NCBI RefSeq assembly: GCF_021431925.1
Contig: NZ_CP090373.1
Location: 62,001 to 126,000, forward strand
Source: Halobaculum sp. CBA1158
Lineage (GTDB): Archaea > Halobacteriota > Halobacteria > Halobacteriales > Haloferacaceae
Direction of reading: 5' to 3'
DNA: 64,000 nucleotides
Shown: positions 28,502 to 53,506 of the stretch, piece after piece
Numbering within the stretch: position 1 is the first letter of the stretch
How the letters are laid out: every line of letters begins with the position of its first letter
Notes under the pieces: model-generated
Database searches by the model: none
Seen by the model: only the letters and a program-made list of their open reading frames with translations
What the model was told of the DNA's origin: nothing
Translations under genes and position numbers: made by a program

Positions 28502-28687
28502 AACGCGCCCGATCGCTTCGGAGCTTCTTTCAATTGAGTTCGGTTGGTGGTCAGCAACTGGCGGCACTGTGTAATTTCGGTGAGTATCGCTATGCGGTCA
28601 CTGATTCCACAGTTTTCCCGAGGAGTACGAAGTTCGGTATACACAGACGCTTCCTCTGATGGGCCACATAGCTACGCCAGCACTAGG

Positions 28688-28693
28688 TTTATA
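28688..28693 (+). promoter_or_regulatory. TATA element for the 34-residue gene at 28718
   Basis: TTTATA centred 27 bases before the ATG at 28718, the spacing expected of a leaderless haloarchaeal transcript. Confidence 0.6.
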
Positions 28694-28717
28694 CCGCTTG
28701 ACGGACTTCTTCCCGAT

Positions 28718-28822
28718 ATGAGCCTCGAAGAGACGGTTGACTACCTCGCCGAGGAACTCGACCTCGAGCGAAGTGAACACGTCCGTGAGGTCGGTCAGTC
28801 GGTCGCCGAGCTTCGCGACTGA
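28718..28822 (+). CDS. 34-residue acidic microprotein
   Basis: The frame MSLEETVDYL... ends with SVAELRD. It is short, but has a canonical TATA element at leaderless distance, a helix-rich acidic composition typical of real haloarchaeal genes, and a stop that abuts the stop of the convergent Fic-like gene (no intervening base). It may be a small antitoxin or regulator, or the N-terminus of a gene truncated at this junction. I do not recognise it. The 215 bp upstream contain no other gene. Confidence 0.5.
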   Translation: MSLEETVDYLAEELDLERSEHVREVGQSVAELRD

Positions 28823-29710
28823 TCAGAACATTTCTCTGAAGTCCCGTTCGATGAGTCCGTCCTCCAGATACGTGATGAACTCTTGTTTCGTTGGTCCTTG
28901 ACAGTCGAGCAGATCGTCCCGCTCTGCACGTTTGAGGACTGCCTGTGCGAAGTCCGTACAGTGGGATTCATGCTGCTCAGCGTACTTCGAAAGGGCATCT
29001 CGCCAATGCATATCCAGCTCGAACTCGGCTAATCGAATTTGGATCCCGTCTTTCCGTTCGACGAGGTTGACGTCTAGGTCTTCGAGCTGCTTGAAACGGA
29101 GGTTGTTCCGGCGGACCGTGATGAGCCGTTTGGAATCCACGATGTAGGGATCGACCCACTCTCGCCAGGTATCGTCGTCGACGTGCGTTCGTGGCATCGA
29201 AAAATTCGAATCTACACTCTCAATACAGAATTGTAGCATCGCGATGCCAGTTCGATGATTCGCATTCGGGAGGGAATGTCGGAGAATCAAATTCGACATC
29301 ACTTCGCCGGCGACTTCAGGAACTGATGCTCCCCAGGATACGTGATCAAGTGCCTGTTGTATCTTCTGCGGTTCGAACTCCTTGTAAAGCCGAAACTCAT
29401 CCTCATCTCGAACATCGACAGCAGCTTCGAGCAATTCCACTAACCGGAAGGCGACAACTTGCCCAGGACGAGGGAGGTCACGAATACGGTCGCTCAGCCA
29501 TTCCTGATCGAAGTCAATATCTTGGGCTGATTCGATCTCTGATTCGCCTTCGTAGAGGACATAGACCGGTGTCTCGAAGGGGTATCCGATGAGTTTCGTC
29601 GACTCATCGGATTGCTCTCGCTGAGACCGGATTTCTGCTACCGATGCCGAACTATATTTGAGTGAGAAATTCTCGGCCTGTGGGTGATGATAGAAGACGA
29701 GCCGAGCCAT
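28823..29710 (-). CDS. Fic/Doc-like protein
   Basis: A 295-residue protein from the ATG at 29710, which has a CTTTAC element about 27 bases upstream; the frame extends further but without support. Near residue 150 lies HSLPNANHRTG, matching the Fic/Doc signature H-x-F/L-x-x-A/G-N-x-R. The helix before it (VAGEVMSNLILR) fits the fold. Fic enzymes transfer AMP or other groups to proteins; Doc phosphorylates EF-Tu. The usual inhibitory motif is not obvious. It is convergent with the tiny gene at 28718, which could be a partner. Family call moderate, activity unknown. Confidence 0.6.
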   Translation of the reverse strand: MARLVFYHHPQAENFSLKYSSASVAEIRSQREQSDESTKLIGYPFETPVYVLYEGESEIESAQDIDFDQEWLSDRIRDLPRPGQVVAFRLVELLEAAVDVRDEDEFRLYKEFEPQKIQQALDHVSWGASVPEVAGEVMSNLILRHSLPNANHRTGIAMLQFCIESVDSNFSMPRTHVDDDTWREWVDPYIVDSKRLITVRRNNLRFKQLEDLDVNLVERKDGIQIRLAEFELDMHWRDALSKYAEQHESHCTDFAQAVLKRAERDDLLDCQGPTKQEFITYLEDGLIERDFREMF

Positions 29711-29763
29711 TTCAATGTGTATTCGTGCGAAGTGGGTAAAGCAGTCCCGCTTGTATGTTGATT

Positions 29764-30060
29764 CTACGACTGGGTGGGTGCGTTCACGTCTTCTAAATAC
29801 TGGCTTTCCCACTCACGTCGCGCCTCGATCTCCCGCACTCCGCGTTGTGTGACCGTGTACACGTTCGTCCGTTTGTCGAGTTCACCTTTCTCCAGGAGGC
29901 CTTTGCCGACGAGGTCGTCGAGGTTTGGATAGAGCCGTCCATGGTTGATCTCTTGTTCGTAGTAGTCGTCAAGTTCGGCCTTTACTGCGAGCCCGTGTGG
30001 TTCCTCGAGCCCGGCGATCACGTACAAGATGTCCCGCTGGAACCCAGTTAGATCGTGCAT
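29764..30060 (-). CDS. PadR-family transcriptional regulator
   Basis: A 98-residue winged-helix protein of the PadR type: FQRDILYVIAGLEEPHGLAV, then INHGRLYPNLDDLVGKGLLE and VYTVTQRGVREIEAR. PadR proteins are usually dimeric repressors of transport or stress genes. It is divergent from the CPW-type ATPase, with about 210 bp between them, and may control that gene or the Fic-like gene downstream. The small size without a long C-terminal helix is common in haloarchaea. Confidence 0.85.
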   Translation of the reverse strand: MHDLTGFQRDILYVIAGLEEPHGLAVKAELDDYYEQEINHGRLYPNLDDLVGKGLLEKGELDKRTNVYTVTQRGVREIEARREWESQYLEDVNAPTQS

Positions 30061-30164
30061 CCGTGTGCTCCCTATTTTTGAGGGGTGGCATATGTTCTCT
30101 CTGGTACTCAGAGGCGGTGATTCGGACCAAGGGTATCAACTAATATACTCGTCACCGAACAGCG

Positions 30165-30170
30165 TTTAAT
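30165..30170 (+). promoter_or_regulatory. TATA-like element upstream of the CPW ATPase transcript
   Basis: TTTAAT centred about 27 bases before the ATG at 30195. If transcription starts there, the 22-codon leader frame at 30195 would be read first. Confidence 0.4.
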
Positions 30171-30194
30171 ATCGAGGCATCTGTATCACCGGTA

Positions 30195-30263
30195 ATGTCC
30201 CTTCGGCTGAGGTCGCCGTTGAGGTTCCGTGGCTGTGATCGGCCGACTATCAGATGGTGGTAA
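30195..30263 (+). CDS. Possible 22-residue leader peptide before the CPW ATPase
   Basis: An ATG at 30195 placed as for a leaderless transcript opens 22 codons ending in TAA at 30261-30263, in the same frame as the ATPase and seven bases before its GTG start. The peptide is basic (MSLRLRSPLRFRG), unlike most halophilic proteins. It may be a leader controlling translation, the former start of the ATPase split by a stop codon, or chance. Confidence 0.25.
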   Translation: MSLRLRSPLRFRGCDRPTIRWW

Positions 30264-30269
30264 TCAATT

Positions 30270-32795
30270 GTGTCTCCATCTCAATCGCTATCTTCCACAT
30301 GCGCGCTTTGTGGGGGGACTGTCCCCGATGATCGAGACGTAGCTGAAGACGACATCGTCTTCTGCTGTGATGGATGTCGAAACGTCCATCGAGTGCTCGG
30401 TAGCGATGGAGATCACAGTCGGATGGCTCCGACGGACGATATTATACACAAGCCTGAGTCTGGAACGCACGAGCGAGAGGCAGCCATGCATCGATCAGGA
30501 GCTGAGGACCGTGTCTTCCTCCAAGTCGACGGGATGCACTGTGCGACGTGTGAGGGATTCCTCGAATCGGTCGCCAAGGATTGCGAAGGTGTCGTCGATG
30601 CGGCAGCAAGCTACGTTACCGAGACGGTCTGTATCACATACGACCCTGACCGCATCTCGATGGACACTCTCTGTGATACCCTGAGTACACTCGGCTATTC
30701 GGCAACCCTCCGTGCTGGAGGGAGTGATGACGCACCGACTGTAATCGGACAGTCACGGCGGTCTGACGAGCCGAATGAACGAGGCATTGACGAGGTGCTG
30801 GGATTCCGTTACGCTGCTGGCGTCATTTTCGGGACGTTCATGCTCCTCCCGTATGCGGTCCTCCTCTATCCGGCGCAGCTCTCGTCGTTCTTTGGTGAGG
30901 GGACACTCGATATGTACGCGAGTGCGTCCGGGATCGGCGGTGGAGATGGCCTGTTGATCCTGCCGCTCTTTCTCGTTCTGACGGGTGTCGTCCTCGTGTT
31001 CACCGGCCTGCCGCTGTTACAGGGTGCGTATGTCAGTCTGAAGATGCGACAGCCGAACACGGACCTGCTTGTCGCACTCACCGTTGTGAGTGCCTACGTG
31101 TACAGTACAATCGCCTTTCTCCTCGGTCGGCTCGACGTCTTCTACGACCTCACGATTGTGGTTGCCGCGAGTGTGGTGGCCGCCATCTTCTATGAATCAC
31201 TGAGCAAGCAGCGAGCGATGGATCGCCTGACGAATCTTACTATCTCTCACGTCACCGAAGCCAGGCGGTACGGCGCCAATGGGACGACGACGGTCGATGT
31301 TCATGACCTGAAAGCCGGGGAGCGGGTCCTCGTCCGTGAGGGCGAACGAATCCCGGTCGATGGAGTTCTCGCTGAGGGTGAGTGTACGGTCGACGAAGCG
31401 ATCGTGACAGGCGAGTCGCTCCCGGTATCGAAGCAAGCGGGAGACGAGGTCGTCGGCGGGGCAGTCGTCACAAATGGTGCTGCTGTTCTCACAGTGAGCG
31501 ATAGGACAACCAGTAGTATCGATCGCCTCATCACCTCTGTCTGGAATCTCCAGAGTGGGGATCACGGCGTCCAGCGGCAGGCCGATCGGCTCGCGTCAGT
31601 CATCATCCCGGTCGTCGTCGGTGGGGCGGTACTCGCCGGAGTGGGGTCGCTTCTGGTGGGGACGGGGATTCCCGTCGCCGTCCTGACGGCGCTGGTGGTT
31701 CTCTTGGTTGGGTGTCCGTGGGCACTTGGCCTGGCAACCCCGCTCTCGGTGGCAACCAGTATCGAACAAGCGGTAGAGCGGGGCATCGTCATCTTCGACG
31801 AGACAGTCTTCGAGCGCCTTCGGAACGTTGACGTCGTCGTCTTTGACAAAACGGGGACTCTCACGACCGGTCAGATGGATGTCCTCGAGGCGGATGCACC
31901 GTCGGATCTGCTTGAAATCGTCGCGGCCCTCGAACAGCGAGCATCCCACCCAGCGGCCGACGCAATCGTGAATACGTTTGCACACGGGAATCAGGAGGAC
32001 GATCGCTCGAGAGCTGATGGGGGTGTTACCGATGGAAGTGAGCACGAGCACGCAGAGCACATCACCGAGTTCACGAGCCACACGACTGGCGTCGAGGGAG
32101 TCGTCGAGGACACGCGCGTTCTCGTCGGAAACCTCGATCTCTTCGCGGAACTCGGGTGGTCGGTGAGCGAGCAGATCGAGACGCGTGCCGCAGAGGCACG
32201 AACGGCCGGTCACCTTCCGGTCGTCGTCGGTCGTGACGGCCATGCAGAGGGCGTCATCGTCGTGGGCGATGAACCCCGCCCGAGCTGGGATGACACACTC
32301 ACGCAACTGAGTGACCGTGACATCGAGATCGTCGTTCTGACCGGTGATGGCGAGGCTGCTACTGACTTTCTCGACAGCCATCCTGCCGTCGATCACGTGT
32401 TCGCGGGGGTCCCGCCGGCAGGCAAGACCGCGACGATCCGGCGGTTACAGTCTCGTGGGCAGGTTACGATGGTCGGTGATGGGACGAACGATGCCCCGGC
32501 CCTAGCGACAGCAGATCTGGGAATCTCCCTCGGTGGGGGGACAGCACTCGCGTCCGATGCCGCGGATATTTCTATCGTCGATGATGACCTCGCGGCGGTG
32601 GAGACGACGTTCGACCTCGCAGATGCAGCTCGTCGGCGTGTCAGACAGAACAACGGGCTGGCGCTGCTCTACAATGGAGTCACGATGCCCCTCGCAGCGA
32701 CGGGGTTGCTGAATCCGGTGTTCGCGATGGGTGCGGTCGTGGCGACCGGCGGTCTCCTCGCGGCGAACTCGTTCCGAGACCTGCTTCACGAGTAG
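30270..32795 (+). CDS. P1B-type heavy-metal ATPase with N-terminal Cys domain, HMA domain and unusual CPW motif
   Basis: An 841-residue protein. Residues 11-40 carry a cysteine cluster (CALCGG, FCCDGC) like the domain at the head of CcoI/FixI-type ATPases. An HMA domain has CATC at 91-94. Eight helices follow with TGES, the motif CPW (482-484) where CPC is usual, DKTGT at 526, SHPAADAI and GDGTND. CcoI-type pumps supply copper to cytochrome oxidase. Loss of the second cysteine of CPC should change metal choice or affinity. The start is GTG; no ATG fits the domain. The PadR gene is divergent. Confidence 0.85.
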   Translation: MSPSQSLSSTCALCGGTVPDDRDVAEDDIVFCCDGCRNVHRVLGSDGDHSRMAPTDDIIHKPESGTHEREAAMHRSGAEDRVFLQVDGMHCATCEGFLESVAKDCEGVVDAAASYVTETVCITYDPDRISMDTLCDTLSTLGYSATLRAGGSDDAPTVIGQSRRSDEPNERGIDEVLGFRYAAGVIFGTFMLLPYAVLLYPAQLSSFFGEGTLDMYASASGIGGGDGLLILPLFLVLTGVVLVFTGLPLLQGAYVSLKMRQPNTDLLVALTVVSAYVYSTIAFLLGRLDVFYDLTIVVAASVVAAIFYESLSKQRAMDRLTNLTISHVTEARRYGANGTTTVDVHDLKAGERVLVREGERIPVDGVLAEGECTVDEAIVTGESLPVSKQAGDEVVGGAVVTNGAAVLTVSDRTTSSIDRLITSVWNLQSGDHGVQRQADRLASVIIPVVVGGAVLAGVGSLLVGTGIPVAVLTALVVLLVGCPWALGLATPLSVATSIEQAVERGIVIFDETVFERLRNVDVVVFDKTGTLTTGQMDVLEADAPSDLLEIVAALEQRASHPAADAIVNTFAHGNQEDDRSRADGGVTDGSEHEHAEHITEFTSHTTGVEGVVEDTRVLVGNLDLFAELGWSVSEQIETRAAEARTAGHLPVVVGRDGHAEGVIVVGDEPRPSWDDTLTQLSDRDIEIVVLTGDGEAATDFLDSHPAVDHVFAGVPPAGKTATIRRLQSRGQVTMVGDGTNDAPALATADLGISLGGGTALASDAADISIVDDDLAAVETTFDLADAARRRVRQNNGLALLYNGVTMPLAATGLLNPVFAMGAVVATGGLLAANSFRDLLHE

Positions 32796-37047: not shown

Positions 37048-37203
37048 ATGGGGAATCGATTTGAAATCGACGGCGAGGAAGTTCTGGACGGCGAGGTCAA
37101 ACCGTTCGGGAACAGCGCCCACGTCACCGTCCCCAAGCGTTGGCGTGGCGCGGACGTGAAAGTCGTCCGAATCTCAGAACCCACCGGACAAGACGGAGAA
37201 TGA
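37048..37203 (+). CDS. DUF2080-like transposon-associated small protein
   Basis: A 51-residue protein, MGNRFEIDGEEVL then KPFGNSAHVTVPKRWRG, with the look of an AbrB/SpoVT-type or related small DNA-binding fold. Such genes precede tnpB in many haloarchaeal IS200/IS605 elements and are annotated DUF2080. Its stop overlaps the tnpB start (ATGA), so tnpB translation is probably coupled. A regulatory role for the element is inferred. Confidence 0.8.
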   Translation: MGNRFEIDGEEVLDGEVKPFGNSAHVTVPKRWRGADVKVVRISEPTGQDGE

Positions 37204-38495
37204 ACAACTCGCAGGGCCTCGTCAAGACGCTGGATTTCCATCTCAACATCCAGAGTGACAACGAGGGCCTGTTGTACGACGCCACGCTCGAAGCCCGCCG
37301 AGTGTACAATGAAACCACCCGGCTCGCCAAAGGGGGCGTAGACTGGGACTCGATTTCCACGCGCCTCGAAGACGATGCCGACCTCGTAAAGAACACGACC
37401 CAACGCATCGTTGCCAAGGCACTCGGGGCGATGGAGAACTACTACGAGTACGACGACTTCGGCAAACCCAGCCACACAAAGGACGGCACGTACCCGCTTC
37501 GGGCGAACTTCTCGGAGGGTTACAATCTTTCGCTCACCGATGAAGGCGATGTGGCGTTCCGAATCAGCGCGAAGCCGTACAACCACGTCAAGGGCGTCCT
37601 TGATGGAAGTGATGCCCACCTCGACCTCCTCAAGACCGCGCTCAAAAGCGACGAGTGGAAGGTCACAACGTCCGAGACGCTGTGGTGTGACGGTGAACCG
37701 GAACTCCACGTCAATATCCGCAATACCGAGCAGACCGTTCGAGACAAGCAAGACTCACGGACGGTCGTCGGCGTGGACGTGAACGAGGACAACGTGGCCC
37801 TCACCGCACTCTCAGAGGATGGCGTCGAAGACACGCTGGTCATCGACTTCCCCGAAATCAAGTTCGAGCGCCATCGCTACTTCACGATGCGGAAGCGCGT
37901 CCAGAACGCGGGGAAGGACAGCATACACGACACGCTGGAAGGGCGTGAGGAACGGTTCGTCCGTGACCGACTCCACAAAGTGTCTCGGCACATCGTGGAG
38001 TGGACTCAGCAGTTCGAGAGGCCGTGCATCGTCTTTGAAGACCTCAAAGAGATGCGCGACAGTATCGACTACGGCACACGGATGAACCGACGCTTGCACC
38101 ACCTCCCGTTCCGCGCTCTGCAATACTACACGTCGTACAAGGCGTCGTTCGAGGGCATTCCGACCAGATGGATTAATCCCGAGTACACGAGCCAGCGGTG
38201 TCCGATGTGTGGGCACACGGAGCGTGCGAATCGGAACAAGAAGCGGTTCAAGTGTAAGGACTGTTCCCATCAAGACCACAGCGACCGAGGCGCAAGCGTC
38301 AACATTTCCGTGAAAGGCATCAAGAAGCATCAAGATTGGAATGTGCCTGCTCTCAACAGCCTTCCACAAGTTCGGAAGGTGCGACGGCAGGCATCGGGGG
38401 CCGTGGACGCCCCGACCGCAACCCGCTCGTCCGTTCGAGACGACCGTGACCCATCTCGGGGTGTGGCGTCGAGGACGGCGGGAGTGTCAGACTAA
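37200..38495 (+). CDS. tnpB: TnpB RNA-guided nuclease of the IS element
   Basis: A 431-residue protein. The RuvC-like site is split as Asp in VVGVDVNED (near 192), Glu in IVFEDL (near 279) and Asp in HSDRGAS (near 361). A zinc ribbon (CPMCG, CKDC) lies near 333-350. All catalytic residues are present, so it may be active as a guide-RNA-directed nuclease that favours retention of the element. The ATG at 37200 overlaps the stop of the small gene. An upstream in-frame codon at 37140 overlaps that gene and is less likely. Confidence 0.92.
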   Translation: MNNSQGLVKTLDFHLNIQSDNEGLLYDATLEARRVYNETTRLAKGGVDWDSISTRLEDDADLVKNTTQRIVAKALGAMENYYEYDDFGKPSHTKDGTYPLRANFSEGYNLSLTDEGDVAFRISAKPYNHVKGVLDGSDAHLDLLKTALKSDEWKVTTSETLWCDGEPELHVNIRNTEQTVRDKQDSRTVVGVDVNEDNVALTALSEDGVEDTLVIDFPEIKFERHRYFTMRKRVQNAGKDSIHDTLEGREERFVRDRLHKVSRHIVEWTQQFERPCIVFEDLKEMRDSIDYGTRMNRRLHHLPFRALQYYTSYKASFEGIPTRWINPEYTSQRCPMCGHTERANRNKKRFKCKDCSHQDHSDRGASVNISVKGIKKHQDWNVPALNSLPQVRKVRRQASGAVDAPTATRSSVRDDRDPSRGVASRTAGVSD

Positions 38496-40321: not shown

Positions 40322-41476
40322 CTACGTGGAGTAGCCGGCGTACTCCATGAGCTGGTTGAAGATGTCCGTATCCATGACGGACCGATAGACCACGCCGGTG
40401 AGCATCCCGCCGGGATAGAACGTGCCGTTCATCACGTGATTGACCTTATGACAGTGCATCAGGTAGATGCCGGGGTCCGCATCGGCAGTAAATTCGATTG
40501 TGTGTCGTTCAGCAGGGGCAACGTTCGTGACGTCCATGTCGTGTCGGGCAGCCTCCGGAATCGTCCCGCCGTCCTTTTCGACGCGCTGGAAGCGGTGGTT
40601 ATGGATGTGCATCGGGTGCGACATGTACCCACCGTTGACGAGGTGGATACGAACTGAGTCGCCTTCGTCGACGATGATCGGCGACCCTTCTTCGGGGTGC
40701 AGCGTCCGGGGAGCGCTCTTCCCATTGACGGTAAACACGTCCGGGTTTCGACTTGCCGAATTGTAGGTGAAGTCCGCCTCACCGGCCCACTTCCGTGGAA
40801 CTCGCGAGTCCCAGTCCTTGATCGTCATGAAGTATTCGCGGTCCGCCGGTTCGTAGCCTTCGGGATCGACTCGGTAGACCCCGTACATGCCCATGTCGAT
40901 ATGCCGGTGGGTCTGGAAGTGACAATGGTAGAAATGCGTCCCAGGGACGTTAGCGGGGATCTCGTAGGTGTGTGTCTCCCCTGGCGGGACCTGAATGCCG
41001 GTCGTCGTCGGAACGCCATCGTTCTCCCACGTCTTGCGAACTCCGTGGAAGTGAATCGTATGGGGACGTCGACCATCGGTGTTGTCGAGTCTCACCTCCA
41101 TCGCGTTACCCTCGGTCGTTCTGAGAATTGGGCCAGGGACGCTGGGGTCGTTGTCGTCGGCCTGGAACGCCCAGACGCGGGGGAATTCGACGGGCCCACC
41201 CATTGTATCGAGCGGGTGGACCGCGTGTCGGGCCTGCTGAGTCCGCATCGTCACTTCGCCGCCCTGCTCGTCGACGTTGACGACTGTTGGAGGGCTGGTG
41301 TAGGGGAGATCAGGCGAGTCAGTTTGTGCCTGCGTGGGGGTACCGCTCGTTGCTGCTGGCTCGTTGGCTCCGCCCGCAGAACAGCCTGCTAACGAAGCGA
41401 TACCGGTCGCGCCAGTTGCCGCGAGAAACTCACGCCGGGACAGTCCGGTTCCGGGTGCGCCGAAACGTGTAGTCAT
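40322..41476 (-). CDS. Multicopper oxidase, short form, Tat-exported lipoprotein
   Basis: A 384-residue protein with a twin-arginine signal and lipobox (SRREFLAATG, then LAGC). Copper motifs are HFHG, HCHFQTH, HPMHIHNH and HCHKVNH, so four histidine clusters are present within a length closer to two-domain laccases and nitrite reductases than to CueO. The T1 Cys-His pair is in the last cluster. A different branch from the oxidase at 20162. Oxidation of Cu(I), phenols or nitrite reduction are all possible by family; the clusters favour a laccase-like oxidase. Confidence 0.85.
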   Translation of the reverse strand: MTTRFGAPGTGLSRREFLAATGATGIASLAGCSAGGANEPAATSGTPTQAQTDSPDLPYTSPPTVVNVDEQGGEVTMRTQQARHAVHPLDTMGGPVEFPRVWAFQADDNDPSVPGPILRTTEGNAMEVRLDNTDGRRPHTIHFHGVRKTWENDGVPTTTGIQVPPGETHTYEIPANVPGTHFYHCHFQTHRHIDMGMYGVYRVDPEGYEPADREYFMTIKDWDSRVPRKWAGEADFTYNSASRNPDVFTVNGKSAPRTLHPEEGSPIIVDEGDSVRIHLVNGGYMSHPMHIHNHRFQRVEKDGGTIPEAARHDMDVTNVAPAERHTIEFTADADPGIYLMHCHKVNHVMNGTFYPGGMLTGVVYRSVMDTDIFNQLMEYAGYST

Positions 41477-41644
41477 GATACACTCGGTATTTTGGTTGGC
41501 CTAAACATAGGGCGACTGCGGTGTCCCAATTCACGGGACAGCGCGTGGATATGTTCGGCAAAAGGTGAATGAAGATGGCGGCTTTTCACCTATACTTGTT
41601 CGCCGTTAGGAGTCCGAGATTGGGGCTAGAAAGCGATCAGATTT

Positions 41645-42370
41645 TTAGAGTCCGCCCGTGGACGACAGATAGACTCCTGCGAACTGCACCGCGTTATACG
41701 TCCCGTGAATCACAGCCGGCACTGTGAGGTTGTCCGTGTACTCGTACGCTGCTCCCAGTACTAAGGCCAGGACGAATGCGATACCGATGTACACCAGTTT
41801 GCCTTCCCCTGACAACGAGAAGAGATGGATCGATGCGAACAGAGCGCTTGCGAGGACGATTGCACGGGCCGGATGGAGACTTTCACGGAGGGTGCCCTGG
41901 ACGAGGCCCCGGAACAACAGCTCTTCTCCCGGGCCGACCAACAGGAATTGGAGGGGGATCAGAAGAAGGAAGACACTCGGATTTTGTCGCCCGACCTCGA
42001 CGATCTGATTCTGAGCCGAGTTCAGACCGAGGGCCGTGATTACTGAGGACGCCACAAAGAGCAACCCCAGGATCGCTATACTCCCCCCGACAATCACCGC
42101 CCCATCACGCTTGTCAGGCAGACGAACTGGAACGAATCCGAATCCGAGATCACGGCCTTTGAGATAGAGGATGGCGATGCCCCCAAACGTCACTCCTTGG
42201 AGGAAGAACGTACTCAAAACCAGCCTGAGGGCTGGACGCGACGCAAGGTCGACTCCAAACAGCCCAACGCCCGTAGCGACGGCAAGGAATACGATAGCCC
42301 CCGCGACGTATGATCCATACGTGAGACCAATAGCAGAGGCGACAGATCGGAAGCGAGATGTCGACGACAT
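41645..42370 (-). CDS. CPBP-family intramembrane protease
   Basis: A 241-residue, eight-helix protein. The Abi/CPBP signature is present: the Glu pair in GPGEELLFRG, a His in FASIHLF, and a third site in VIHGTYNAV. Such proteases process prenylated or peptide substrates and some give bacteriocin self-protection. It resembles the broken gene at 49999 throughout. It is transcribed toward the multicopper oxidase, with a 168-bp gap. Confidence 0.85.
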   Translation of the reverse strand: MSSTSRFRSVASAIGLTYGSYVAGAIVFLAVATGVGLFGVDLASRPALRLVLSTFFLQGVTFGGIAILYLKGRDLGFGFVPVRLPDKRDGAVIVGGSIAILGLLFVASSVITALGLNSAQNQIVEVGRQNPSVFLLLIPLQFLLVGPGEELLFRGLVQGTLRESLHPARAIVLASALFASIHLFSLSGEGKLVYIGIAFVLALVLGAAYEYTDNLTVPAVIHGTYNAVQFAGVYLSSTGGL

Positions 42371-42468
42371 AAATCAGACGTGATTGTAGGGCTCCACCCT
42401 ACAAGCTGGCTTCGATAGGTCGATTCCGGTACTATTCATTCCAAGACATCCCGCGGTAATGATTTTGT

Positions 42469-42912
42469 TCATGGCTGACGTTCAGGTTCGACGAGGTTGG
42501 ATCCAGCGAGGACTGTAATCGTCACGAGCACGAACGCGATGAGTGAGAGATTCGGAATCGTGAGTCCGAGTACCGGTGCCTGCCACTGGACGACTGCACA
42601 GGGACCAGCAAAGGTGCATGATGTCATGGTTATCTGGAGATAAGAGTGATATGCAGCGATCATCCCGCCGGGCACGGACAGTGGCACGACAGTCCGCCAG
42701 ATGGTGTTGTGGTTCTCGATGGCAGCAACGCCGACAACGACAACGTGTGGGTACATGAGGATCCGTTGGTACCAGCAGAGGGTACACGGAACGAGGCCGA
42801 GTCCGAGGCTGAACCAGAGGCTCCCGACGGTTGCGACTGCCGCGACGATCGCCCCGCTCGCGAGCCAGAACCGACCGTTGGCAGTGGCCGGCTCAGTTCG
42901 ATCCGATTGCAT
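42469..42912 (-). CDS. dsbB: DsbB-like disulfide-bond oxidoreductase
   Basis: A 147-residue, four-helix protein with the first redox pair in PCTLCWYQRILMYP and the second in SCTFAGPC. The QR after CWY is the quinone-contact site typical of DsbB. It re-oxidises DsbA and passes electrons to quinone. The ATG at 42912 lies inside the end of the upstream dsbA-like gene (20-base overlap), so the two are coupled; a longer frame exists but would run deep into that gene. Confidence 0.88.
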   Translation of the reverse strand: MQSDRTEPATANGRFWLASGAIVAAVATVGSLWFSLGLGLVPCTLCWYQRILMYPHVVVVGVAAIENHNTIWRTVVPLSVPGGMIAAYHSYLQITMTSCTFAGPCAVVQWQAPVLGLTIPNLSLIAFVLVTITVLAGSNLVEPERQP

Positions 42913-43879
42913 CCTCGATGAGCTGTCTCGTTCGATCTCCGTTTCCGAGTGGGTTGATTGTCGTTCCATCGATGAGGAGCGCCGGCGTGGAAGAGATCCC
43001 GTTATTTTCCGCAGCGCTGTCCGTCGCCCGAAGTGCGTCAGTATACTGGTTTTCCTGAATCGCCGTCCGGACCGGGTCTGTCTCTGAGACTCCTGCCGAC
43101 CGAGCAAATTGTACCATCTTATCTGCAGTTGCCCATTGCTCACGTTCGGGCGGCTGATTCTGGAACACGTATTCGTGAAATGCCCAGTAGGAGGCCGGTT
43201 CGGCGTTCCAGACGGCTAACCCGGCTTGCCCAGCTGCCGGCGCATCTGGGCCAAGAAACGGTTCGCCACCAAAATAGGCGAGATCGCGAAATTCGAGTGC
43301 GATATCACCCGGCTCGACGTAGTCCGCCACCAACTGCGAGAGCATTCCCGTACTGAACTGGGCGCAGTATGGGCACTTCCAGCTCCCGAAGTAGGTGACT
43401 GTAACCTCGGCGTCAGCAGACCCCATTGTTGCGTACCGGAATTCGCTCGGCGATTCGGGAATTGGTGCGGACGTGATGACACCCGTTTCACTGTTTGCAT
43501 TTGTGCCCCCACCGGATTTGGCGCTCGGATCGTCAGAGAGAACGGATCCGCCAACGACGAGCGCGGCAGCGGCGCTCCCACCGCCGGCGAGGAGGAGCTG
43601 TCGACGAGTGAGTCCCCCGACGGCAGTACCGACCCCACCCTCAGAGAGACGCTCTGTGAATGTGAGAGAGTCGACGGCCGCGTCCGCTCGCTTGGAGTCA
43701 ACGCGTGAGAGGTCGTCGGGATGTGCAGCGAGCCAATGACGATACAATTGCTTGTGGGGTTCTTTTTCCAATTGCGTACCACAGTAGTGGCACGCGCTGT
43801 GGGCGTTCCATGTGTGATCGCGGGTGGCTCCAGCTGTTTCGAACTGGTCGGCACAGATTGGGCACGTGTGTGATGTCAT
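42893..43879 (-). CDS. DsbA-like thioredoxin-fold protein with N-terminal zinc finger and internal Tat signal
   Basis: A 328-residue protein. Residues 1-50 form two Cys/His units (CPICADQF, CHYCGT) of the C2H2 type. At about residue 90 a twin-arginine motif (TRRQLLLAGGG) leads into a hydrophobic helix. The thioredoxin domain has the active site CPYC near 168 and a cis-Pro loop (SSTPALLIDG). The finger would stay in the cytoplasm and the redox domain outside, if the internal signal acts as an anchor. It forms disulfides in exported proteins together with the overlapping DsbB. Confidence 0.88.
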   Translation of the reverse strand: MTSHTCPICADQFETAGATRDHTWNAHSACHYCGTQLEKEPHKQLYRHWLAAHPDDLSRVDSKRADAAVDSLTFTERLSEGGVGTAVGGLTRRQLLLAGGGSAAAALVVGGSVLSDDPSAKSGGGTNANSETGVITSAPIPESPSEFRYATMGSADAEVTVTYFGSWKCPYCAQFSTGMLSQLVADYVEPGDIALEFRDLAYFGGEPFLGPDAPAAGQAGLAVWNAEPASYWAFHEYVFQNQPPEREQWATADKMVQFARSAGVSETDPVRTAIQENQYTDALRATDSAAENNGISSTPALLIDGTTINPLGNGDRTRQLIEDAIGSN

Positions 43880-43986
43880 TTTAGTCGCTACTTAGAGTAG
43901 GCTGTATCAGAGATGTAGTATCTCGTTTTCGGTAGCCGGGTTGAGTGGTTGTCATTGGTGGGGTCATTCAACGGGGGAGTGATCGG

Positions 43987-44502
43987 TCAGTCACGAAGAT
44001 ACGCGACGAGAACGGTCGTCAGGAGACAGAGCAGAATGAGGATCGCCACACCGAGGTGGGTCGTCACGATAATCGGATGTAGATTTTTCGTGACCGTGAG
44101 ACCTCCAAGAATGACTTGGAGCGGAAGGAGGACGAGAGCGACCGTGGCCGACCATTTGACAATAGCATCATTGCGGTGTGTCACCCAAGCTCCGATCGCT
44201 GTGCCCAAAATTAGGAACCCAGCTGTCATCGCGAGCCCCCGATGAGCCCATTCAGCGAATATCTGTAATGCAGAGTACGGCGAATTGGCGATGATACTGG
44301 GTTGGAGGAAGGGTACCCAGGTTCCATAACAGGTCGGCCAGTCGGGGCAGGAGAGCCCGGCACCGATCGCACTCGTGTAGGCACCGAGTAGCATCACGAT
44401 GTACGTTAGACCCAGCGTCAGGCCGGCAATGTGTTCGTACTCTACTGGAACCCCTAAAATAATCTTTCTCAGGTCGTTTGATGTTGTTGGATTTTGAGCC
44501 AT
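43987..44502 (-). CDS. Half-length CtaA/COX15-like heme A synthase
   Basis: A 171-residue protein with four membrane helices, the cysteine pair of SCPDWPTCYG and heme-ligand histidines in WAHRG and TTHLG. Bacterial CtaA has eight helices in two halves; four-helix forms are known in archaea and act as dimers. It would convert heme O to heme A for terminal oxidases. The ATG at 44502 starts near the fold; an ATG at 44553 would add 17 residues. It is close to the Dsb pair and the TFB gene, with no oxidase gene in the window. Confidence 0.8.
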   Translation of the reverse strand: MAQNPTTSNDLRKIILGVPVEYEHIAGLTLGLTYIVMLLGAYTSAIGAGLSCPDWPTCYGTWVPFLQPSIIANSPYSALQIFAEWAHRGLAMTAGFLILGTAIGAWVTHRNDAIVKWSATVALVLLPLQVILGGLTVTKNLHPIIVTTHLGVAILILLCLLTTVLVAYLRD

Positions 44503-44671
44503 GTCTGGGTTGGGTAGGAGATCCTCGGGTACGGTGTGTCTCATCAAAGCCAAGGTCGCAAAGGTATAGTTCGGATTCCCATCGAATGGGATTCCGGCAT
44601 CTATTCATTGAGAACCCAATCCACAGCATTGATAAGAAGACCCACAAGTTGCCGGGAGACCACTTGGACGT

Positions 44672-46943: not shown

Positions 46944-48350
46944 ATGAAAATGCCATCTGAACGGTCATATCGTTTGTGGGCGATTCGTGGAGTGATACTA
47001 GTGGTCGTCATCGGTCTTCTGGCTCCGACGGCAGTCTCCGCGTTCACCTACGAGCCGACTACACTCCAACCCGGGACGATCGAAAGGCCGGCAAATGGAA
47101 CGACGGTTATCTCGGTACAGGGTTTCAAGATCGCAGGGCAGGAAAGCGGTAAGAAACCAGCTCGTCTCGTTGGAGTCGGTCCAAAGGGGAACGTTGAGTG
47201 GGTGTACAATGGAAGCGAGAACGGCATAGTATGGTTTTATGACGTCGATCCGCTGGAGAATGGGTCGATCCTCATCACTGGAACGAAGCCTGGAGAAACA
47301 GTGGTCACCATCTGGGATCCTCAAACGCAGCGAGCCGAGTGGTCGCGGACGTTCGACTGGGAGGACACTCATGATATTGACCTCGTCAACGGCGATCAGT
47401 TGCTCGTCGCCAACATGCGAAACTACAACGAATCGACGGGCAAAAACAACGACAGACTACTCCTCTACGACCTCTCGAAAGACGATGTCGTCTGGGAGTG
47501 GAAATTCCGTAAGAACGGCTACAACAGAACCGGTGGCGGGAAGTACACCGACGACTGGACGCACGTCAACGACGTTGATAAGATCGGCCAGGGTCGATAT
47601 CTCGCTTCACCCAGAAATTATGACCAGGTGATCGCGGTCAATCGATCCACGAAGAACGTCACGATGCGGCTCGGTTCGGATGAGAACTGGGATACGATGT
47701 ACGAACAGCACAATCCACAGTATCTCGAAAGTAAGAACGGAACGGAGACACTGCTGGTCGCCGACAGCGAGAACGATCGCATCGTAGAATACGCGAAGAA
47801 CAATGGAAACTGGACCCGAACATGGCTGCTCAGAGGGAATTTCAACTGGCCTCGGGACGCCGACCGGCTCCCGAACGGCAATACGCTGGTCACGGACACG
47901 CTCAATCACCGTGTCATGGAGGTGACCCCGAATGGCGAGGTCATCTGGGAGTTCTACGCTCCGTGGGGAACGTACGAGGCCGAGCGCATGCAGCTTGGAG
48001 ATGAGCCCGGTGGCCCGACCATCCGAGATCAAAACTCGACTGGGACAGCCACACTCACCGGGAGCGTTGCGCTGACACCCGGCACGGGCGACCGCTCTAC
48101 GTTTGCAGAATGGGTAACCAACACGTTCGCCGGTACGCCGATTGATTCCGAGGTGGCGTGGCTTGCCGATCGGTGGGCACATATCACACCGTGGATTCGT
48201 CCCGTCTGGATGGGATCATGGGATTTCGCCCGGACAGTTCTTGCCGGAGGAGTGGTCCTCGGGTGGCTCACCGTCGACGCCATATACCATCGAACTCAGA
48301 TTATTCATCGACTGAGAACTGTCGGCACTCGAGTTAGATCGCGAATATGA
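46944..48350 (+). CDS. Arylsulfotransferase-like beta-propeller protein, membrane-anchored (copy 1)
   Basis: A 468-residue protein with a signal helix (VVVIGLLAPTAVSA), a long beta-propeller and a C-terminal membrane helix (FARTVLAGGVVLGWL). Repeated blades carry NRSTK-, ADSENDRIVE- and FNWPRDADRLPNGNTLVTD-like motifs of the arylsulfotransferase (ASST/PQQ-like) group. Many NxT/S sites suggest surface glycosylation. The ASST His/Arg residues are only partly recognisable, so sulfotransfer is uncertain. A paralogue follows at 48411. Confidence 0.8.
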   Translation: MKMPSERSYRLWAIRGVILVVVIGLLAPTAVSAFTYEPTTLQPGTIERPANGTTVISVQGFKIAGQESGKKPARLVGVGPKGNVEWVYNGSENGIVWFYDVDPLENGSILITGTKPGETVVTIWDPQTQRAEWSRTFDWEDTHDIDLVNGDQLLVANMRNYNESTGKNNDRLLLYDLSKDDVVWEWKFRKNGYNRTGGGKYTDDWTHVNDVDKIGQGRYLASPRNYDQVIAVNRSTKNVTMRLGSDENWDTMYEQHNPQYLESKNGTETLLVADSENDRIVEYAKNNGNWTRTWLLRGNFNWPRDADRLPNGNTLVTDTLNHRVMEVTPNGEVIWEFYAPWGTYEAERMQLGDEPGGPTIRDQNSTGTATLTGSVALTPGTGDRSTFAEWVTNTFAGTPIDSEVAWLADRWAHITPWIRPVWMGSWDFARTVLAGGVVLGWLTVDAIYHRTQIIHRLRTVGTRVRSRI

Positions 48351-48410
48351 ACTCTGCTATGACACGATCAATCAAAACGACCATTCAGCCGAATCAAGAG
48401 TCATCCACCG

Positions 48411-49748
48411 ATGCCTAAGAACTCGATCGTCCCTGAAGCCGGGAATCAGCTCCCATCTACCTCTCGTGGTTCTCTCTTGATCCTCGCCGGAATCCTACTC
48501 TTAGTAGGGACGCTTACCGTAAGCGCCGTGCTCGCGCCATCGATCGGACAAACAGACGCATCCGATCACCAGTCCCTCACACTTGTCGGATCACAGGGGG
48601 GTGGCCCAGGGTGGCACGAGTACGGCAGCGTCTATCTTCTCAACGGTACGACCGTCACGTGGAGTGAGTCGAGCGCAGACAGCTACTTCGACGTGACGAA
48701 AACCGAGAATGGAACCGTCCTAGCCGGGTTTATGGATAGTGGGTACGTTTCGTGTGGTCCATACGAATCGCCATGCACGCGTACTGGATTCCGGGTTATC
48801 GACCCACAGCCTGGCCCTCGCGTGCTTTCTGAGTATAGTTTTCCCGTGAGGACGAGCAAAAACAGTGAAGTCCACGACGTCGAACAGCTCGAATCGGGAG
48901 AATACCTGCTCACCGACATGGAGTACGAGCGAATTTTCACAGTCAAGGATGGTGAAGTCACGTGGCAGTGGAACGCAAGTTCGTTTTACGATGCCCCACC
49001 AGACCCGACGACGACTGACTGGCTCCACATCAATGATGTCGATGTCATCGATGAGGGTCGGTATCTCGTCTCAGTCCGCAACGCCAACCAACTCGTGGTT
49101 GTTGAGCGTGGTGAAGGGGTTGTTGAGGTCATTAATAAGGACACGACCGATTCGAACGACGCGAACTGCCGCAAGTCCGGACAGCTCACAGATTATGACG
49201 GAGATGGACAGATACGATGCGGTGATCCCACAGTTCTCGACCATCAGCACAACCCCCAGTGGCTCGGGGAGGACGCTGTCCTTGTTGCCGATAGCGAGAA
49301 TGATCGCGTGGTTGAACTCCACCAGACTGCGAACGGCAGTTGGACACCAGCGTGGACACTCGAACGTGCTGGTGGTGTCGCGTTCAACTGGCCCCGCGAC
49401 GCCGATCGACTCCCGAATGGGAATACGTTGATAACGGATACGCTGAATCGACGTATTGTCGAAGTGAACGAATCGGGGGAAGTTGTCTGGAGTGTCCAAA
49501 CGGAGCGAATTCCGTACGAAGCAGATCGACTCCCAGTTGGTGAGTCCGTGGGAGCACCTCAGTATGCTACAGATTCGGGGTCAAACAACACTCCCTCTGA
49601 TGACGTACCAGTACTTTCGCTGATGCTGGTCGGCCTCCGAGCGGTTTTTCCGTCGACACCGTTCTGGTTCCGCGAGCCACAACTCGGGCTAACAATCCTA
49701 TCAGTGCTTTCTGTTCTTGTAGGTATCGTAGATGAATTATCGAGGTGA
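48411..49748 (+). CDS. Arylsulfotransferase-like beta-propeller protein (copy 2)
   Basis: A 445-residue protein with the same plan as copy 1: an N-terminal helix (LILAGILLLVGTLTVSAVL), propeller blades with ADSENDRVVELHQ and FNWPRDADRLPNGNTLITD, and a C-terminal membrane helix (GLTILSVLSVLVGIV). An acidic segment (DYDGDGQIRCGD) looks like a calcium-binding loop. It follows copy 1 by 60 bp. The pair is a tandem duplication that has diverged. It probably acts on the outer surface; substrate unknown. Confidence 0.8.
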   Translation: MPKNSIVPEAGNQLPSTSRGSLLILAGILLLVGTLTVSAVLAPSIGQTDASDHQSLTLVGSQGGGPGWHEYGSVYLLNGTTVTWSESSADSYFDVTKTENGTVLAGFMDSGYVSCGPYESPCTRTGFRVIDPQPGPRVLSEYSFPVRTSKNSEVHDVEQLESGEYLLTDMEYERIFTVKDGEVTWQWNASSFYDAPPDPTTTDWLHINDVDVIDEGRYLVSVRNANQLVVVERGEGVVEVINKDTTDSNDANCRKSGQLTDYDGDGQIRCGDPTVLDHQHNPQWLGEDAVLVADSENDRVVELHQTANGSWTPAWTLERAGGVAFNWPRDADRLPNGNTLITDTLNRRIVEVNESGEVVWSVQTERIPYEADRLPVGESVGAPQYATDSGSNNTPSDDVPVLSLMLVGLRAVFPSTPFWFREPQLGLTILSVLSVLVGIVDELSR

Positions 49749-50875: not shown

Positions 50876-53506
50876 ATGACATCGTCCGACCGGGATCCAC
50901 CCGACTCAAGCGATGAATCCCATGGACACAACCATGACCACGACCACGAACATGACCATCACACCAGTGGACGGGAAGGTGATAGCGTAACCGCGACTTC
51001 GTCGAATAGGGACGATGTCGCCCAGTTTTCGGTACCTGAGATGGACTGCCCGTCCTGTGCGGGGAAGGTCGAAAATAGTGTCCGGAAACTCGATGGTATC
51101 ACCACTATTGAACCTCAGGTAACGACTGGGACGCTCTCGGTATCCTACGATGGAGGCCACACCTCTCCGGACGAGATTGCCGAACGCGTAGAAAAAGCTG
51201 GGTACACGGTCGAAAACCAGGGCGAGACGACCGCGACGTTCACTGTCCCTGAAATGGACTGTCCATCCTGCGCGGGGAAAATTGAGAATGCCCTGGATGA
51301 CATCTCGGGACTCTCGAGTTACGAGACACAGCCGACGACCGGGAAGGTGATTACGACCTACAATGGTGATTCGGTTTCACCATCGAAGATCACTGCTGCG
51401 ATCGAAAGCGCAGGCTACGAGGTGACCGACTCGACAGCGAACAACACCGACACTGAGAGCGATCCCACCGATGACCGCGGGAGCGTTTGGACCAGTTCGC
51501 GGGCGATCAAAACGTGGATCAGCGGTGGGTTCGTCGCACTCGGCCTCCTCTTCGAGTTCTTCCTCACCGGCCAGAACGTCCTCGTGGCCGAACTCGTCGG
51601 CCGTGAGTTACTAATCGCCGACATCCTCTTCCTCATTGCTGTCGGGGTTGCTGGCCAGATTATCTTCCGAAACGGCTACTACTCCGCGCTGAACCGCAAC
51701 CTCGACATCGACCTGTTGATGAGTATCGCCATCAGCGGCGCCATCATCGCCAGCCTGGTCTTCGGGGAAGCGCTTTACTTTGAGGCCGCCACGCTTACGT
51801 TCCTGTTCAGCATCGCGGAGCTGCTCGAGCGATACTCGATGGACCGGGCCCGGAACTCACTCCAGGAGTTGATGGACCTGTCACCCGACGAGGCGACGGT
51901 CAAACGAGACGGCGATGAGGTGACAATCCCTGTCGATGATGTGGCTGTCGGTGATATCGTCGTCGTGCGTCCGGGCGAGAAAATCCCGATGGACGGCGAG
52001 GTTCTCGACGGGGAGAGTGCCGTCAACCAGGCCCCGATTACAGGCGAGAGCGTGCCCGTGGACAAGACCTCGGGTGATGAGGTGTACGCCGGAACGATCA
52101 ACGAACAGGGCTATCTCGAGATCGAAGTTACCTCCGAAGCAGGCGATAACACGCTCTCGCGCATTGTCCAGATGGTCGAGGACGCTCAGTCCAACAAGAC
52201 CGAACGCGAGCAGTTCGTCGATCGATTCTCCTCGTACTACACCCCCGTCGTCGTCGGATTCGCGGTCTTAGTGGCGGTTGTCCCGCCGCTCCTGTTCGAG
52301 GCGTCGTGGCCGACATTCATTGTCTACGGACTCACGCTGCTAGTGCTCGCATGTCCCTGTGCTTTCGTCATTTCGACGCCAGTGTCCGTGGTGTCGGGGA
52401 TCACCAGCGCCGCGAAGAACGGCGTCCTGATCAAAGGCGGCAACCATCTCGAAGCGATGGGCGCGGTGGAGGCCATTGCAATGGACAAGACCGGCACAAT
52501 CACCAAAGGGGAACTCACCGTTACCGATGTCGTCCCGTTGAACGACAACAATGAGGACGATGTCCTCCGATGTGCCCGTGGGCTGGAATCGCGGTCGGAA
52601 CACCCCATCGGTGATGCAATCGTCGAATTCGCAGAGGACAGTGATATCGGAGCACCGACAGTCGATGACTTCGATAGTATCACCGGGAAGGGTGTCGAGG
52701 CCGACCTGGACGGGGAGAAACACTACGCAGGGAAGCCTGGATTCTTTGAGGAACTCGGGTTCGATCTCGAACACGTCCACGCGACGACTGACGGCGGTGT
52801 CGTCACGACGAAGAGTCAGCAGATGTGTGAGCGCAATAACTGTGTTGACCTTCTTGCAGAGACGGTGCCCGAGCTCCAGTCGCAGGGGAAGACTGTGGTC
52901 TTAGTCGGGACCGAGGACGAGATTGAAGGCGTGATCGCCGTGGCAGACGATATTCGTCCCGGAGCGAAAGCAGCGATCCAACGGCTCCATGATCTCGGCA
53001 TTGAACACATCGTTATGCTCACGGGTGACAACGAGCGCACTGCCCGGGCGATTGCCGAGGAGGTCGGTATCGACGAGTTCCGCGCAGAACTCCTGCCCGA
53101 CGAGAAGGTCGAGGCGATCAAAGAACTCGACGAACAGTACGACGGTGTCGCAATGATTGGTGACGGCGTCAACGACGCACCCGCGCTTGCGACGGCGACC
53201 GTGGGTATTGCGATGGGTGCCGCTGGGACGGATACTGCCCTCGAAACCGCCGATATCGCGCTCATGAGCGACGACCTCTCGAAACTGCCGTATCTCTACG
53301 AACTCTCACACGATGCGAACAGCGTCATCCGGCAGAACATCTGGACGAGTCTCGGTGCGAAGGGTCTGCTTGCACTGGGCGTGCCGTTCGGGCTGGTCCC
53401 GATCTGGGCGGCCGTCCTCATCGGCGATGCAGGCATGACAGTTGGCGTCACCGGCAATGCAATGCGCCTCTCCAGAATTAAACCCGATTCGTTACTGACC
53501 GATTGA
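50876..53506 (+). CDS. P1B-2-type zinc/cadmium/lead ATPase (ZntA-like) with two HMA domains
   Basis: An 876-residue protein. A His-rich start (HGHNHDHDHEHDHH) leads into two HMA domains with CPSC at 58-61 and 129-132, each preceded by EMD. Eight helices carry TGES, CPC at 493-495, DKTGT at 537, SEHPIGDAI and GDGVNDAPA. The last helices contain GDAGMTVGVTGNAMRL, where the Asp is the P1B-2 marker. Family knowledge therefore points to Zn, Cd or Pb export. A CERNNC pair between the P and N regions is an extra cysteine site. It is not linked to a regulator gene. Confidence 0.9.
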   Translation: MTSSDRDPPDSSDESHGHNHDHDHEHDHHTSGREGDSVTATSSNRDDVAQFSVPEMDCPSCAGKVENSVRKLDGITTIEPQVTTGTLSVSYDGGHTSPDEIAERVEKAGYTVENQGETTATFTVPEMDCPSCAGKIENALDDISGLSSYETQPTTGKVITTYNGDSVSPSKITAAIESAGYEVTDSTANNTDTESDPTDDRGSVWTSSRAIKTWISGGFVALGLLFEFFLTGQNVLVAELVGRELLIADILFLIAVGVAGQIIFRNGYYSALNRNLDIDLLMSIAISGAIIASLVFGEALYFEAATLTFLFSIAELLERYSMDRARNSLQELMDLSPDEATVKRDGDEVTIPVDDVAVGDIVVVRPGEKIPMDGEVLDGESAVNQAPITGESVPVDKTSGDEVYAGTINEQGYLEIEVTSEAGDNTLSRIVQMVEDAQSNKTEREQFVDRFSSYYTPVVVGFAVLVAVVPPLLFEASWPTFIVYGLTLLVLACPCAFVISTPVSVVSGITSAAKNGVLIKGGNHLEAMGAVEAIAMDKTGTITKGELTVTDVVPLNDNNEDDVLRCARGLESRSEHPIGDAIVEFAEDSDIGAPTVDDFDSITGKGVEADLDGEKHYAGKPGFFEELGFDLEHVHATTDGGVVTTKSQQMCERNNCVDLLAETVPELQSQGKTVVLVGTEDEIEGVIAVADDIRPGAKAAIQRLHDLGIEHIVMLTGDNERTARAIAEEVGIDEFRAELLPDEKVEAIKELDEQYDGVAMIGDGVNDAPALATATVGIAMGAAGTDTALETADIALMSDDLSKLPYLYELSHDANSVIRQNIWTSLGAKGLLALGVPFGLVPIWAAVLIGDAGMTVGVTGNAMRLSRIKPDSLLTD

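Follow-up and report, generated by a model that had tools for sequence, protein, structure and literature searches.

A haloarchaeal DsbA-like protein with two C2H2 units ahead of an internal Tat signal

Introduction

Twin-arginine translocation (Tat) signals are usually described as N-terminal. In a 64,000-nucleotide stretch of the Halobaculum sp. CBA1158 genome (contig NZ_CP090373.1, positions 62,001 to 126,000; hereafter the window), an open reading frame (ORF) on the reverse strand at 42893-43879 encodes a DsbA-like protein of 328 amino acids whose Tat signal is internal rather than N-terminal, with the twin arginines (RR) at residues 92-93 and no alternative start. What does the part ahead of this signal do, and on which side of the membrane does it lie? 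An earlier description made from the DNA alone, here called the sequence-only reading, agrees with the present one in coordinates, strand, and Tat motif. It placed two Cys/His units in the approximately 90 residues before the motif and proposed that a finger stays in the cytoplasm and links zinc or DNA there to disulfide formation outside, or else that a later start codon is used. It rightly called Tat signals normally N-terminal, though internal ones are established in polytopic actinobacterial Rieske proteins (PMC7317946, PMC13186574; excerpts).

The protein is probably, though by no means certainly, a Tat-exported, signal-anchored DsbA that keeps its fingers inside the cell and its enzyme outside, with the fingers perhaps acting as a zinc-binding docking or stabilizing cap and DsbB probably working with the enzyme. 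What appears to be new is the finger domain before a Tat signal, together with the module to which it belongs; internal Tat signals and haloarchaeal DsbA as a Tat substrate were already known. Within the open-license PMC literature that was covered, neither a zinc finger before a Tat signal nor the module was found described.

Conservation of the Two C2H2 Units

The Cys/His units of the sequence-only reading are real and proved to be two complete C2H2 units rather than one finger (Table 1). A chance origin of the pattern was rejected: among 100,000 shuffled versions of residues 1-90, 0.98% contained one unit and none contained two. Conservation of the finger in orthologues, which that reading had named as a check, was borne out. 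Nine aligned N-termini all share the initiator Met, the eight ligands, W24, W49, and RR, and purifying selection acts on the finger codons.

Selection was followed in 16 distinct full-length finger-bearing proteins, that is, the window protein and 15 relatives over which differences from it were pooled. Left out were L010, which matches only to residue 251 and has a longer frame, and the truncated L049 (L and G numbers denote loci and genomes). The uncorrected ratio of nonsynonymous to synonymous differences (pN/pS) is lowest in the linker (0.20) and the fingers (0.21), followed by the enzyme domain (0.26), and is higher in the Tat motif and h-region (0.52) and in the spacer (0.62). The finger value combines a pN of 0.17 with a pS of 0.80, which is near saturation, and the enzyme value a pN of 0.155 with a pS of 0.59. 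By this measure, the fingers appear to be about as constrained as the enzyme domain.

These data bear on whether the finger part is translated at all. It is extremely improbable that the finger is an annotation artifact, with translation beginning just before TRRQLLL and the finger never made. Such a start would bring the protein close to its finger-less relatives (described below), which read as ordinary-looking Tat lipoproteins with RR near the likely start, and most close relatives do have a GTG at codon 60. This GTG is absent in the window, where the frame after M1 has TTG at codons 37 and 45, both within the second finger unit, and then no further ATG, GTG, or TTG before the Tat motif is reached. 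The window accordingly offers no start directly ahead of TRRQLLL. Since the start ATG is also present in all 16 finger-bearing proteins and the finger codons are constrained, the later start codon of the sequence-only reading was rejected. TATA-like A/T runs lie about 29 bases upstream of the ATG in most close relatives, and none lies at that distance in the window.

It is very improbable that the fingers bind DNA, thereby coupling external disulfide chemistry to transcription or tethering DNA to the membrane. The C2H2 pattern, the two tandem units, and the basic residues of the tail would suit this role. However, when the positions at which a classical C2H2 finger contacts bases are mapped onto the two units, our reading of the alignment finds no basic residues there in unit 1 and no conservation in unit 2. 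Conservation in the N-terminal alignment falls instead on the ligands, two tryptophans (W24 and W49), some of the leucines, and the tail. Together, these residues suggest a protein partner rather than DNA. Of the transmembrane link advanced by the sequence-only reading, the cytoplasmic finger joined to an exported redox domain stands as the natural reading of an internal Tat signal without a lipobox, while the link to DNA finds no support.

The enzyme domain exceeds the Pfam cut-offs for Thioredoxin_4 (PF13462; 83.3 bits, cut-off 23.2) and DSBA (PF01323; 34.1 bits, cut-off 25.6). The best solved chain is 3eu3 (E 5e-21), BdbD of Bacillus. BdbD and the DsbA/Thioredoxin_4 proteins have a homologous enzyme domain, and a DsbB gene is adjacent in the window; the BdbD match, however, is limited to query residues 143-324 and excludes the fingers, linker, and Tat signal. 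Within its own genome (3.3 Mb), the window protein is the sole match to the full protein at E 0.001 and the sole match better than E 0.05 to the finger-plus-tail module.

Signal Anchor or Cleavable Signal Peptide

Behind RR, the window protein has a mildly hydrophobic h-region of 22 uncharged residues (KD19 1.75), which together with the twin-arginine motif is what is expected of a Tat substrate. The h-region contains no Cys. RR is present in all 16 finger-bearing proteins and is followed by 21-28 uncharged residues, and none of the 16 has a Cys between RR and the enzyme domain. A set of 26 finger-less relatives, mostly high-scoring, was picked by hand from the matches listed in the search of the class; L013 and L042 (internal stop) and L034-L036 (identical to L033) were left out. 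A lipobox follows shortly after RR in 25 of the 26, the exception being the distant L224, which was kept in this set and omitted from the tree. These haloarchaeal DsbA-like Tat lipoproteins share a related enzyme domain and a Tat motif with the window protein, and some lie beside dsbB in the same gene slot. What sets the two apart is the lipobox, present in these relatives, which lack N-terminal fingers, and absent from the window protein, which has them. A single change accounts for the distribution of the finger label on the enzyme-domain tree (41 rows).

In one study of haloarchaeal Tat lipoproteins, lipobox mutants with Ser in place of Cys escaped processing and remained cell-associated (PMC2945643; excerpts). 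The missing lipobox of the finger-bearing proteins favors a retained anchor, and we infer that the h-region is an uncleaved signal anchor. A comparable end state is reached in polytopic Rieske proteins, in which the C-terminal redox domain is exported by an internal Tat signal that itself becomes a transmembrane (TM) helix (PMC7317946; excerpts). There, the preceding part consists of TM helices inserted by Sec, whereas the window protein has a soluble finger-like domain in that place.

Alternatively, the fingers could be no more than an unusually long n-region in a Tat signal peptide that is removed, with the fragment lost or released once a signal peptidase has cut at the outer end of the h-region. 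This is unlikely. In 11 of the 16 finger-bearing proteins, the h-region has an AxA motif at its outer end or close to it, making cleavage possible in these relatives. Haloarchaeal DsbA is itself a Tat substrate, and its lipobox mutant seemed to undergo inefficient processing at a predicted signal peptidase I site; earlier lipobox mutants were released (PMC2945643; excerpts). However, AxA is missing from the outer end in the window protein, L002, L051, L052, and L053. The fingers are under selection similar to that on the enzyme, which would be odd for a discarded piece, and related modules sit before strongly hydrophobic helices.

A Finger-Plus-Tail Module on Other Proteins

These related modules were collected with a query alignment, A2, consisting of finger unit 2 and its LSRIDxxR tail. 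Its seeds were window-type, His-domain, finger-TM-only, and soluble members; the DUF3105, redoxin, and phosphoesterase types were not seeds. With up to 30 candidates scored per genome, A2 found matches at E 0.01, many of them weak, in 136 of 242 genomes of the class. At least 112 distinct module proteins were counted in a partly seeded, incomplete census that covers the fetched loci (listed matches at E 1.1e-8 or better and three weaker). A TM-like helix or a Tat motif lies behind the module in 87 of the 112, and besides the window type, L109, and L176, the module precedes a TM-like helix in 69 proteins. What follows the helix is a His-rich domain in 40 of the 112, DUF3105 in 25, and little else in 4. 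The window type accounts for 15 and one truncated copy, and another small membrane type and a remaining protein for three and one, respectively. Two single proteins combine the module with a Tat motif: L109 has four fingers, a Tat motif, a redoxin domain, and DUF3105, and L176 has one finger with the tail, a Tat motif, and a calcineurin-like phosphoesterase domain. In a phylum search at E 0.001, 26 of 294 genomes matched, 14 in the order of the window and 12 outside it, the latter more weakly (best 6.9e-8).

The finger-TM proteins with DUF3105 or His-rich domains have in common with the window protein a C2H2 unit and an L-x-R-I-x-x-R tail, followed by a membrane segment. They differ in having one finger, a more hydrophobic TM segment, and other exoplasmic domains, and a pattern scan found no Tat motif in either type. 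In L054, L060, L070, L087, L102, and others, the exoplasmic domain is a conserved His-rich one of the form VHxHG ... WHxHA. His-rich finger-TM proteins gave no above-cut-off match in Pfam (two scanned) or NCBIfam (one scanned). Haloferax volcanii also has zinc finger proteins, small ones of the C(P)XCG type; in the main text of the paper on them, the terms membrane, transmembrane, and Tat occur 0 times (PMC11241148).

Gene context was compared for 20 finger-TM loci, 10 with the His domain and 10 with DUF3105. A gene for enoyl-CoA hydratase and/or NAD synthase flanks the module gene in 6 of the 10 His-domain loci and 9 of the 10 DUF3105 loci, and in L187, L188, L189, L198, L199, L200, L202, and L204 the shared slot lies between the two. 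At this one chromosomal slot, the finger-TM protein thus carries either a His-rich or a DUF3105 outer domain, depending on the species. The inner cap is therefore preserved there, whereas the part outside varies. The two flanking genes give no functional clue. The arrangement appears to parallel the dsbA slot, where the enzyme is either finger-anchored or lipid-anchored.

The DsbA-like protein of the window would accordingly be one case of a haloarchaeal module, made up of finger, LSRIDxxR tail, and membrane segment, that is carried by unrelated exoplasmic domains. As a speculative and rather doubtful extension, the module may be a dedicated transmembrane cap, placed ahead of the Tat signal or TM helix in proteins with a DsbA, redoxin, phosphoesterase, DUF3105, or His-rich domain; at one locus, the outer domain would be interchangeable. 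Through this cap, thiol and metal chemistry outside the cytoplasm would be linked to the zinc or redox state inside or to a shared cytoplasmic partner. The recurrence of the module in any case offers a handle on a group of uncharacterized haloarchaeal membrane proteins.

Proposed Mechanism

In the mechanism proposed here, the internal Tat signal would first take the folded DsbA domain to the outer face of the membrane, and the h-region would stay as an anchor in the N-in/C-out orientation. The h-region is most likely kept because the lipobox Cys is absent and, in the window protein, the outer end lacks AxA. With the h-region so retained, both C2H2 units and the linker would remain in the cytoplasm. 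The adjacent DsbB would reoxidize DsbA, as the gene order suggests. The cap would bind zinc, and our guess is that it acts as a protein-protein docking or stabilizing domain that tethers DsbA, within the membrane, to a partner in the cytoplasm. The protein anchor would then take over from the lipid anchor of the finger-less relatives, amounting to a natural swap of one anchor for the other in a single gene slot. If the fingers are indeed retained inside, the reach of Tat extends to N-in/C-out proteins with working cytoplasmic domains.

Besides the AxA motifs and the behavior of the lipobox mutants, several observations weigh against this mechanism. The Pfam TAT_signal model scores 11.8 bits in the window protein, under its cut-off of 22.7; a nearby RR-bearing multicopper oxidase is also under this cut-off, at 14.7 bits. 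The zf-C2H2_4 model scores 14.5 bits against a cut-off of 27, while the four-finger relative L109 exceeds a Pfam C2H2 cut-off with 45.1 bits. Confidence in the AlphaFold model of the whole protein is low (mean pLDDT 32.6), as it is for residues 1-94 in AlphaFold2 (54.2), where helices and no strands are predicted. The tree lends modest support to one clade of finger-bearing proteins (56/83, and 54% of bootstrap trees). Seven of the 26 finger-less relatives (L215, L216, and L220-L224) have no CxxC in the stretch read; some of the 26 may not be oxidoreductases, so that not all are comparable enzymes. In the census, 21 of the 112 proteins are soluble-looking and TPR-like, with no membrane segment, and hence the module is not always membrane-linked.

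It has also to be considered whether the fingers act in biogenesis only, with a zinc-loaded cap that delays or licenses Tat export or restrains the CPYC site inside the cell. Tat exports folded cargo (PMC7317946; excerpts), the finger part lies directly before the signal, and the linker is conserved. This role is nonetheless improbable, since finger-less relatives in the same gene slot are presumably exported without fingers and the module also precedes ordinary TM-like helices.

Gene Neighborhood and Distribution

The features of the gene and its neighbor dsbB are listed in Table 1. A GAGG precedes the ATG of dsbB.

Table 1. Features of the finger-bearing dsbA gene and the adjoining dsbB gene in the window.
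Feature	Residues	Coordinates	Strand	Description and basis
Whole gene		42893..43879	-	Two C2H2 units, linker, internal Tat signal/anchor, spacer, DsbA-like domain
C2H2 unit 1	6-27	43799..43864	-	C6 C9 H22 H27, CX2CX12HX4H; ligand invariance, shuffle test
C2H2 unit 2	30-53	43721..43792	-	C30 C33 H48 H53, CX2CX14HX4H; ligand invariance
Linker	54-90	43610..43720	-	First part is the tail PDDLSRVDSKRAD; pN/pS 0.20
Internal Tat motif and h-region	91-115	43535..43609	-	TRRQLLL (residues 91-97, R92-R93); uncharged h-region, putative membrane anchor
Spacer	116-145	43445..43534	-	Weakly conserved; pN/pS 0.62
DsbA/Thioredoxin_4 domain	146-328	42896..43444	-	Pfam; best solved chain BdbD 3eu3
CPYC active site	169-172	43364..43375	-	
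dsbB		42469..42912	-	Pfam DsbB 55.1 bits; probable start codon ATG at 42912, within the last part of dsbA

In every full-length finger-bearing locus of the neighborhood comparison, dsbB adjoins dsbA. The gene order TFB-ctaA-dsbA-dsbB-CAAX-MCO (CAAX protease, multicopper oxidase) holds the finger-type dsbA in many loci and the lipoprotein type in L033-L037, of which L033-L036 share one identical frame. In the two that were read, L033 and L037, no finger remnant lies upstream of dsbA, whose start is close behind ctaA. The divergent finger-bearing loci L029-L032 have no match to ctaA, CAAX, or MCO within flanks of 1.5 kb. Between window positions 40322-44553 and L003, identity is 95-97% for the CAAX protease and multicopper oxidase but only 72-79% for ctaA, dsbA, and dsbB. 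The island is mosaic, and ctaA-dsbA-dsbB looks as if it had been exchanged as one cassette.

The full-length protein occurs in 20 of 391 genomes of the haloarchaeal class, at 55-100% identity, and a truncated dsbA copy occurs in one further genome of this set, G220. In a named collection, which may overlap in strains with the 391 genomes, 12 loci were found; 11 of them, from seven genera, align from residue 1, one of these only to residue 251. One identical dsbA frame recurs in 13 loci that represent at most 10 separate places, as some are counted more than once. Its five named carriers (L006-L009 and L011) come from Halosegnis, Haloarcula, and Halorussus, and the record of L006 is labeled a plasmid. 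An identical frame across genera points to recent horizontal spread. In the truncated copy of G220 (L049:1501-1962), the first finger Cys is replaced and the locus has no dsbB match; finger and enzyme seem to have decayed together in this single case.

Three P-type ATPases, two of them with HMA domains, are encoded in the window (26219-32795 and 50876-53506), as is the RR-bearing multicopper oxidase. The region looks like a copper or heavy-metal island, and copper-linked thiol stress would be a reasonable setting for dsbA, although the missing MCO matches around L029-L032 speak against it. Two neighboring arylsulfotransferase-like proteins are encoded at 46944-49748. The ORF at 37140-38495 has a Cas12f1-like TNB domain and is presumably a transposon-borne TnpB.
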